From contig NZ_CP126095.1 of NCBI RefSeq assembly GCF_030123105.1, positions 5,332,001 to 5,396,000 on the forward strand: a stretch of 64,000 nucleotides of DNA, read 5' to 3'. Positions within the stretch are counted from its first letter, which is position 1. Every line of letters begins with the position of its first letter. This document shows positions 10,925 through 55,187 of the stretch, piece after piece. The stretch comes from Paenibacillus sp. G2S3. Its GTDB lineage: Bacteria > Bacillota > Bacilli > Paenibacillales > Paenibacillaceae. A program made the translations under genes and the position numbers. Below the pieces are notes generated by a model. That model was given only the letters and a program-made list of their open reading frames with translations. It was not told the origin of the DNA and did not search any database.

Positions 10925-11240
10925 TAAAAAACAAAAAGACCCCTCGTCTCAAAGGACGAAAGGCCATTCTTTCGCGGTACCACCTTTGTTTCGCGCCAAT
11001 GAAAAATAAACCTACACTTCTCTCACCCTACGGTTCAGAAGCTTAGCGCGACACTCGTACAGATAACGGCTGCTACCGGCCACATCCTAACTTATCTTTC
11101 CTATGAAGATAAGCTCAGAGGGGCGACTCCGGGGCGACTTCGGTGGCTGTATCCTACGGAATGTCACAGCACTTGCATTCCGCTCTCTGAAGGGCTGACC
11201 GCCTACTCTTCCCGTTCCCAGTCTTTACTTAGATATTGCT
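10925..11240 (-). promoter_or_regulatory. T-box riboswitch leader of valS, GUC (Val) specifier
   Basis: The conserved T-box AACAAAGGTGGTACCGCG lies at 10990-10973, followed by a terminator whose arms GGCCTTTCGTCC and GACGAGGGGTC precede a T run (10931-10964). In Stem I the loop-E halves AGTA (11207-11204) and GAA (11141-11139) flank the codon GTC at 11138-11136, which is a valine codon and matches the downstream gene. The specifier is my reading of the standard T-box layout. Confidence 0.93.
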
Positions 11241-11400: not shown

Positions 11401-11584
11401 AGGGAAAAACCCCCTGATTATAGCCGATAATTGCTTTAAATGAATAGAATTAGGGAATTTGTCCCTAAAAAAAGAGGTAATTTCTATATTCGTAGGGAAA
11501 TCAGCTGATTTTCAGGGAGAAATTCCTTAATTATCAGTCTATTGAGCAATTATCTCTGAATTATAGGGAGATTTTCCCTAATTG
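11401..11584. repeat. Composite inverted-repeat element, copy A
   Basis: Cores begin at 11401 (AGGGAAAAACCCCCTGATTA), 11452 (AGGGAATTTGTCCCTAAAA), 11514 (AGGGAGAAATTCCTTAATTA) and 11565 (AGGGAGATTTTCCCTAATTG). The offsets are 0, 51, 113 and 164. The first two are in one orientation and the last two are their reverse complement type. A weak extra AGGGAAATC sits at 11494. It matches the geometry of the copies at 47109 and 55005. Confidence 0.75.
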
Positions 11585-46721: not shown

Positions 46722-47048
46722 AGGTCATCCTCCTGTTTCGTTCAGTCTACCTTTCCACCTTTGGCTACTATTAGGTAGTATAGCCGTTTCGGTAATTAGT
46801 AAACGCACAATTGAGGATTTGTTGAATTGTTGGTGTAGGACAAGCAGTAGGAAGTTATTATTGGGGGGTTGAAAGTTCTAGGGAGTGCTAGATGCACCTC
46901 AGATTCTTCCCCCAGTGGGAACACAAGAGCAAGAACAGTAGTGAACCTTGCAGCTAAGTTCAGTAAGTCCCTAGTTCCGTCGACTGTGTCGCTCGGGGGC
47001 TCGGGGCGTTGACTCATCTATAGAAGAAACTTAAGTTAGTTCTCAAAG

Positions 47049-47292
47049 CTGATAATTAAGGGAATTCTTACTAATTATCAGTTGTTTATAGCCTTTAAGC
47101 AGATAATTAGGGAATTCCTCCCTGATTATCCGGTGTTCATGACCTCCAAGCTAACAATTGGGGAAAACCTCCCTGATTATTCGCTGATTAGGCTATAAAC
47201 AGGGGAAATCGCCTATTTTTTAGGGAGGTTTTCCGTAAAAAGCTCGATTTGGAGCGATTTTAAGATTATTTCAGGGAGGTTTTCCCTAATTA
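47049..47292. repeat. Composite inverted-repeat element, copy B (best preserved)
   Basis: Cores begin at 47109, 47160, 47222 and 47273: offsets 0, 51, 113 and 164, identical to copy A. The first pair reads AGGGAATTCCTCCCTGATTA-like and the last pair AGGGAGGTTTTCCCTAATTA-like, which are reverse complements, so core 1 can pair with 4 and core 2 with 3. An extra core at 47059 lies 50 nt before the first and is flanked by a perfect CTGATAATTA/TAATTATCAG palindrome (47049-47081). GTTTATAGCC (47084-47093) and GGCTATAAAC (47191-47200) form a further perfect inverted pair. Confidence 0.8.
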
Positions 47293-47482
47293 CTTTTTAT
47301 TGATCCAGACCTCGCTACACACTACGCACCTTATTGCCTACTCTCTCCATACCACGATACTTATCACGCAATTAACCACATTCCTTATCACATCCCTATA
47401 ACACGTTCCAAACCAAGCATATTACCAAGCTTCTATCTCACTCCTACCGCGCTCCATACCAAACTCCTTATCACAATCTTTA

Positions 47483-47512
47483 TCACTCTTTATCACTCTT
47501 TATCACCCCTTA
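47483..47512. repeat. Short tandem repeat, unit TTTATCACTC
   Basis: About three copies of a 10-nt unit lie within the G-poor tract; related TTATCAC words recur through 47350-47512. Confidence 0.7.
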
Positions 47513-54359: not shown

Positions 54360-54433
54360 GTCCCGGTAGCTCAGCTGGATAGAGCATGCGCCTTCTAAGC
54401 GCACGGTCAGGGGTTCGAATCCCTTCCGGGACG
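54360..54433 (+). tRNA. tRNA-Arg (anticodon TCT)
   Basis: A full cloverleaf: acceptor GTCCCGG with CCGGGAC, D arm AGCTCAGCTGGATAGAGC, anticodon stem TGCGC/GCGCA around CTTCTAA (anticodon TCT, reading AGA), and T arm with GGTTCGAATCC. The discriminator is G and the CCA end is not encoded. Confidence 0.97.
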
Positions 54434-55004: not shown

Positions 55005-55187
55005 AGGGAAATCCTCCCTGATATTTACCTATAATCTCAAAAAAACAAACTTTTTAGGGAATTCCTCCCTAAATATTACCTAATAACCGCTAATCATGAG
55101 TAATCAAGCATATTTCAGGGAGGTTTTCCCTAATTATGCTTCTAAAGAGCCTAAAACGCTGAATTTTCGGGAGATATTCCCTAATTA
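55005..55187. repeat. Composite inverted-repeat element, copy C
   Basis: Cores begin at 55005 (AGGGAAATCCTCCCTGATAT), 55056 (AGGGAATTCCTCCCTAAATA), 55117 (AGGGAGGTTTTCCCTAATTA) and 55168 (CGGGAGATATTCCCTAATTA): offsets 0, 51, 112 and 163. The last pair is in the opposite orientation to the first, as in copies A and B. Confidence 0.8.

Follow-up and report, generated by a model that had tools for sequence, protein, structure and literature searches.

A dispersed repeat with four helically phased palindromic cores in Paenibacillus: a probable platform for a DNA-bending or DNA-wrapping protein

Three copies of a dispersed element family, with GGGA-N5-TCCC cores spaced 51/62/51 or 51/61/51 bp, were found in a 64 000-nt stretch of the Paenibacillus sp. 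G2S3 genome (here, the window). The element is probably a two-fold symmetric platform for a protein that bends or wraps DNA; the protein itself is putative. Spacers are 88% A/T at positions predicted solely from core spacing, versus 53% elsewhere, and sequence comparison points to DNA mechanics, rather than pairing in an RNA, as the property under selection. A topological role for the element at 3′ ends is a more tentative proposal.

The core is AGGGA-N5-TCCCT (15 bp), and some cores have one or two mismatches. Element B (47109..47287) has cores at 47109-47123, 47160-47174, 47222-47236 and 47273-47287, spaced 51/62/51 and running forward, forward, reverse, reverse. Element A (11401..11579; cores at 11401, 11452, 11514 and 11565) has the same spacing, and element C (55005..55182; cores at 55005, 55056, 55117 and 55168) is spaced 51/61/51. 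None is assigned a strand. A preliminary description of this DNA had given all three copies the offsets 0/51/113/164, which holds for the four cores from 47109 and for the copy at 11401 but not for the one at 55005, where the centre is 61 bp. A further degenerate core near 47059 (47058..47073, two mismatches, no strand), about 50 bp upstream of element B, lengthens the array by one unit. Tandem Repeats Finder called 47042-47180, overlapping element B, as a 51-bp tandem array of 2.7 copies. The outer spacers of element B (47124..47159 and 47237..47272, 36 bp each) have A/T phasing at the family level. The central spacer (47175..47221, 47 bp) holds the element dyad, and the family periodicity crosses it (profile columns 66-69, 77-79 and 87-88).

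Two other features of the window lie close by. A T-box leader (10949-11228, minus strand) adjoins element A, and short pyrimidine-rich ACTCTTTATC repeats occur at 47463-47512 in the long intergenic region beside element B.

The genome under study (G000) is a single contig of 6.70 Mb. The core-pair pattern (two cores 51 bp apart, at most two mismatches) matched it at 50 places, versus one for the reversed control, and with at most one mismatch the counts were 47 and 0; copies arising by chance are thereby excluded. A single-core pattern that assumed no spacing matched at least 95 forward and at least 76 reverse places (12 and 10 in the control). The preliminary description had allowed that the genome might hold no further copies; there are at least 32 loci with two or more cores, and 23 of these have four cores at up to two mismatches. 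Compared pair by pair, 17 full genomic copies are on average 85% identical in cores, 53% identical in spacers and 28% identical in flanks, and the family boundary is sharp. Inter-core sequence, said earlier to be almost completely diverged, is indeed diverged but not random, given the 53% spacer identity and the helically phased A/T. As side observations, the copies at L055 and L076 are alike over 372 bp at 79% identity, far past the element ends, and the largest element-free stretch among the 32 loci runs from 2.92 to 4.11 Mb; no depletion at the terminus is claimed, as a largest gap of this size has a chance of about 0.07 with 32 points (hand estimate).

The distribution is very patchy, both across the genus and across families. 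Core pairs with at most one mismatch were present in 40 of 100 Paenibacillus genomes, 11 of which had at least 17 places; ten of these 11 had no control match and the other, G098, had 6, and overall the control was positive in 6 of the 100. Some genomes with 1-4 places (e.g. G011, G025 and G028) hold, by sequence, other repeats or chance matches. The exact four-core pattern, with a centre of 61 or 62, was found in 26 stretches of a collection of 84 980 species genomes, from which near relatives of the window are possibly absent. The carriers were Paenibacillus (including P. agaridevorans and P. wynnii), Peribacillus kribbensis, Mesobacillus persicus and Bacillus sp. P14.5, the last three having 52, 52 and 54 core pairs in their genomes (control 0). 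By eye the Bacillaceae spacers look unrelated to those of Paenibacillus, and the geometry is common to both. The spacing, whose loss in relatives the preliminary description had named as a weak point, persists in other species and in Bacillaceae. The centre-62 pattern, with at most three mismatches, occurred in 8 of 398 Bacilli genomes, all eight among the 12 of Paenibacillus (centre 62 only), and the centre-61 pattern in 1 of 43 genomes of the P. kribbensis family, namely P. kribbensis itself (19 places). Such frequencies are odd for the site of a ubiquitous host factor, a point against the bending-platform reading. In Bacillus sp. P14.5 two near-identical elements with identical 30-bp flanks lie 1663 bp apart (L136:193-368 and 1856-2031), and it looks as if a gene had been duplicated in tandem together with its element.

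A literature search with six literal core sequences found no paper, and none of the papers listed by further searches describes the element, as judged from titles and abstract openings. The main texts of PMC3733652 and PMC5217627 are without the word 'Paenibacillus'.

Selection on structure, which the preliminary description had proposed from conserved spacing and diverged sequence, is borne out between orthologues. We compared 25 loci with their orthologues in the relative G057. In the 17 full copies, indel events number 15 in 3054 aligned positions inside elements versus 137 in 6404 flanking intergenic positions (Fisher 1e-10), while substitutions are about equal (7.0% inside and 8.2% in flanks). 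All 25 pairs together give 39/4491 inside versus 182/9242 in flanks, and a comparison with G058, which has 21 places, gives 16/2483 versus 162/5477. The GGGA/TCCC letters of the cores change at 3.9%, versus 8.2% in spacers, in 21 of the 25 G057 pairs (L048, L060, L061 and L066, with more than 10 gaps in the element, being omitted). The corresponding rates in the G058 replicate, which used 14 pairs out of 15 loci, are 3.4% and about 12%.

Length differences between orthologues are often core-to-core units of about 51 bp (L050, L057, L058, L059 with two units, L060, L061, L066 and L069; eight of the 15 pairs listed). Same-half cores are direct repeats, and recombination between them would account for copies with two, three or five cores; units would most simply be gained or lost in this way. 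The centre, which lies between inverted cores, is usually retained; L047 and the G057 partner of L062 have lost it. The locus orthologous to 47109 has an element in G057, G044, G081, G069, G058, G038 and G039, with three cores detected in G044 and G038, and none was detected in G075. G081 (L180) and G058 (L182) have two tandem elements there, about 0.4-0.6 kb apart, where G000 has one.

Core spacing alone set the helical phase beforehand: counting starts at the core centres, with 51/5 and 62/6 bp to the turn. A deduplicated set of 65 copies was the basis of the symmetry, column-composition, periodicity, phase and core-flank tests. With cores masked, the G/C periodicity of spacers peaks at 10.2 bp, with z 46 in the 62 type (50 copies) and z 21 in the 61 type (15 copies). 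The refined period is 10.14 bp in 48 deduplicated Paenibacillus copies of the 62 type (bootstrap 10.12-10.16), 10.38 bp in Bacillaceae (10.30-10.43, n = 6 copies) and 10.40 bp in P. kribbensis (10.36-10.44, n = 11 copies). At the preset phase, more A/T was found in phase than out in 57/57, 8/8 and 11/11 deduplicated copies. In the window the counts are 44/53 in phase versus 29/60 out for element B, 49/53 versus 34/60 for element A and 50/52 versus 33/60 for element C; these differences (0.35-0.41) were reached by none of 5000 stretches drawn at random from the window, whose maximum was 0.34. Columns such as 47, 48 and 66 have a commonest base at only 54-61%, but are A or T in 98-100%.

The coherent spectrum owes part of its strength to shared descent, and a test between orthologues answers that. 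It used 15 of the 25 G057 pairs, omitting L047, L048, L050, L052, L058, L059, L060, L061, L066 and L069 as partial copies, IS insertions or whole-unit differences. Changes from A/T to G/C number 14/696 in phase, 35/474 elsewhere in spacers and 178/3382 in flanks (Fisher 1e-5 for in phase versus other spacer), while A-T swaps are not depleted in phase (2.7%, versus 2.3% and 2.2%). The 14 pairs of the G058 replicate, from a second species, give 20/642, 33/449 and 217/3068 for changes to G/C, and swaps are again not reduced (7.3% in phase, 5.3% in other spacer, 4.6% in flanks). Since the A/T class is kept but A-T swaps are free, one-sided bendability would be what is selected, not a base or a base pair. 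When in-phase columns were taken from Bacillaceae copies only, the G057 pairs still gave 16/609 versus 33/561 A/T-to-G/C changes (p 0.008), and shifting the phase by 4-5 bp raised the rate to 7-9%. The lowest value lies +1 bp from the predicted phase (10/686), and this offset is a point against the bending-platform reading. Among the natures that the preliminary description had offered for the element, a protein-binding array is the best supported, in the form of a DNA-bending array, by the phased A/T and by the orthologue tests with G057 and G058.

Core orientation can be read from N5, which is asymmetric (A..C or G..T). In 57 non-Bacillaceae copies partner cores are opposite in 71/71 comparisons and same-half cores alike in 73/73, and by this rule the element is two-fold symmetric. 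Bacillaceae copies tend to the reverse order (RRF-, 3/8), with partners opposite in four of five comparisons and alike in one; that they follow the dyad rule less cleanly is another point against a bending platform. Flanks of 316 cores, a set with some register duplicates, are A/T-rich around GGGA/TCCC by column composition.

Inverted symmetry also invites a reading as structured RNA, in which cores would pair 1-4 and 2-3 in a fold-back, or form four hairpins, and serve as a bidirectional terminator or a stabiliser of mRNA 3′ ends. We consider this very improbable. Predicted folds are strong (z -7.3 for one strand of element B, -6.6 for the other, and -4.8 for L051), the 3′-end location suits such an RNA, and in the 17-copy alignment the fold-back covariation score (0.134) exceeds all 500 shuffles and all slid versions. 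These energies and this covariation point against the platform. The folds, however, are what inverted symmetry alone yields, and the covariation is hardly specific: the non-nestable control pairing 1-3/2-4 scores 0.126, also above all 500 shuffles, and local hairpins, at 0.117, exceed shuffles too. Two-sided changes fill 48 cells for the fold-back versus 37 for the control. We read the shared excess as subfamilies with common flank types at all four cores. The RNAalifold covariation term is 0.01, and mutual information across the columns of the 17 copies gave no interpretable pairs. The N5 letters of a core do not correlate with those of its partner (z -0.4 and -0.7, 49 copies), and within a core N5 is anti-complementary. 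The smallest p among 28 tests of core-flank positions is 0.012, for 2R-4L, and 1R-4L gives 0.71. Between 11 orthologous pairs, fold-back pairs in or near cores come and go by single changes, with 22 broken, 34 newly formed and one kept through a double change; placement was ungapped, and some pairs match poorly (L068, L071). The 10-bp phasing of A/T is without evident role in RNA, and at gathering scores Rfam matched only the T-box and the tRNA in the window, with no match for the element. Under shuffling, sliding, cross-pairing and the count of changes between orthologues, neither fold-back nor local hairpins stood out from the control, and both were rejected; the non-coding RNA first offered as an option is disfavoured by the near-equality of fold-back and control and by the uncorrelated N5 letters.

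By ORF calls that were mechanical and then hand-corrected, the elements are located at gene 3′ ends. The 32 counted loci of G000, a minimum, include 20 convergent, 12 tandem and no divergent contexts, versus 12 convergent, 19 divergent and 52 tandem among 83 background gaps of at least 150 bp (from the window and 14 other G000/G057 stretches), a convergent excess with Fisher 8.6e-7. L052 and L055 were corrected to convergent. L048 (mechanically -/+) and L061 are interrupted by an IS, so their context was taken from the G057 locus. L072 (element C) was recast from convergent to tandem, its left ORF being merely 85 aa, though the adjacent tRNA gene (window 54360-54433, plus strand) points toward the element. 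Bacillaceae and a few further Paenibacillus loci give 8 convergent, 9 tandem, 0 divergent and 3 open; the P. kribbensis set, which overlaps the Bacillaceae set, gives 6 convergent, 8 tandem and 1 between apparently divergent ORFs, of 15. That one copy is a point against the bending platform. The position between convergent genes fits the putative topological role.

The same position, at 3′ ends and between convergent genes, would suit strong gyrase or topoisomerase IV sites, a Bacillales counterpart of BIME-2 whose phased arms wrap on GyrA C-terminal domains where positive supercoils collect between convergent genes. We hold this to be unlikely. In E. coli the gyrase motif is a long, degenerate sequence with G/C periodicity, and cleavage sites are enriched in BIME-2 (PMC6379681, excerpt). 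The B. anthracis enzyme prefers DNA with a period of 10-11 bp, the more so when that DNA is positively supercoiled (PMC12324340, excerpt), for which reason gyrase remains a rival. On the other side, the E. coli motif is 130 bp long with a period of 10.75 bp and a 36-bp centre outside its periodic arms (PMC6379681, excerpt), and fits the element imperfectly. Neither size class (62 or 61 type) has much power near 10.8 bp, but the small Bacillaceae sets retain amplitudes of 8.5 out of 14.2 and 6.9 out of 13.0 at 10.75. A ubiquitous enzyme would also leave the patchiness unexplained. We used the E. coli definition for this comparison; the Bacillus period is given as 10-11 bp (PMC12324340, excerpt).

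Patchiness across families, dispersed copies, inverted halves and the sharp boundary are features of a MITE, in which cores 1-2 would form one end and cores 3-4 the other, with a pair of transposase-binding sites at either end and mobilisation in trans. The terminal inverted symmetry of a MITE is indeed present, in the dyad orientation and the sharp ends. We rate a MITE as distinctly unlikely as an account of the element. At the five polymorphic G000/G057 loci read (L202/L221, L215/L224, L199/L220, L210/L222 and L062/L225), the site lacking the full element appears to be a deletion that also removed some flanking DNA, or to be a remnant; there is no target duplication and no clean insertion or empty site. 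Among the best 25 neighbour clusters of 58 element loci, the sole transposase is an IS110 pair, and no autonomous partner with matching ends was seen. Copies moreover remain constrained after insertion, which mobility would not explain, as it bears on origin. The miniature mobile element of the preliminary description is possible as an origin, but no target duplication, clean insertion or partner transposase was seen at the loci compared.

Two other candidates were set aside. A recurrent neighbour gene was rejected, since the largest of the best 25 clusters, an ABC transporter-like protein (named from its sequence by eye), covers just 12 of the 58 loci. Mobilisation by RAYT was rejected for G000, where no Y1 transposase (PF01797) was found; of five genomes, G000, G486 and G489 had 0 matches, and G487 and G488 had matches.

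An IS110-family element lies at a core edge of two different elements, L048 and L061. The two copies (L048:2169-3690, G000 about 575.7-577.2 kb; L061:2462-3985, G000 about 4108.2-4109.7 kb) are 99.6% identical over 1.5 kb and match Pfam DEDD_Tnp_IS110 and Transposase_20. In L048 the transposase reads as two ORFs, of 178 and 133 aa, that do not share a frame. These two insertions suggest that the IS110-family element targets the core. IS110 elements use a guide RNA (PMC11208160, excerpt).

We return to the DNA-bending or wrapping platform. Four palindromic sites of about 25 bp each (an A/T-rich flank, GGGA-N5-TCCC and an A/T-rich flank) lie on one face of the helix, 5/6/5 turns apart, with the A/T-rich stretches between them turned to the same side as one another. 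Some 17-18 turns (about 180 bp) would be bent or wrapped around a putative two-fold symmetric assembly that recognises the cores, either a dedicated protein or a DNA-binding protein of the host. A period below 10.5 bp is suggestive of a left-handed wrap, as in nucleosome geometry, and the period of the element would fit such a wrap. Its putative task would be to constrain or insulate supercoils where transcription units end. The fullest version, a patchy and probably horizontally spread system in which a putative sequence-specific protein on the four phased palindromes wraps about 180 bp left-handed, nucleosome-like, as a programmed topological insulator at transcription-unit ends, is speculative, and we put it forward with considerable doubt.

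If the platform reading is true, this would be a dispersed bacterial repeat whose selected property reads from sequence as DNA mechanics, the positions singled out by the helical phase of its four recognition sites being kept as 'A or T' rather than as one particular base. The element is a concrete bait for the protein (about 180 bp, with tens of natural copies and a 5-bp insertion as control). It offers a way to ask how bacteria handle supercoils between convergent genes, and would be an added Gram-positive REP-like target of an IS110-family element.

Known systems share some of these features. REP/BIME sequences of enterobacteria and pseudomonads are likewise short palindromes in inverted mosaic arrays, intergenic and targets of insertion sequences (PMC1525189, excerpt), and BIME-2 is linked to gyrase (PMC6379681, excerpt). 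The element differs in its core sequence, its rigid 5/6/5-turn spacing and its helically phased spacers, and, unlike RAYT-linked REP/BIME, it occurs without a Y1 (RAYT-type) transposase in G000, G486 and G489. GTAG and CGTC are REP tag names (PMC3733652, excerpt); neither tag was seen at the palindrome in the column composition of the 316 core flanks. Bacterial MITEs such as bcr1, ERIC, RUP and NEMIS (listed in PMC3733652, excerpt) are also dispersed, non-coding and of inverted symmetry, whereas the element is free of target duplication or clean insertion in the loci read and has spacing and phase constrained after insertion. Strong gyrase sites (the Mu SGS and the E. coli gyrase motif) are likewise long degenerate DNA with a G/C-A/T periodicity for wrapping, and gyrase wraps DNA positively (PMC12393610, excerpt). 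In place of a 10.75-bp period in two arms around a 36-bp centre, the element has peaks at 10.14, 10.38 and 10.40 bp (overall 10.1-10.4 bp), about 180 bp of length, a periodic centre and four specific cores.

We do not file the element as a REP, a MITE or a gyrase site, because defining features of these classes were looked for and not found. Nucleosome rotational-positioning sequences extend over some 150-180 bp and have their A/T stretches phased at about 10.2 bp. The element resembles them in its phased A/T stretches, and differs in being bacterial and in having four conserved palindromic cores; we know of no histone-like partner. Set beside all of these systems, it appears to work like a phased-bend wrapping site.
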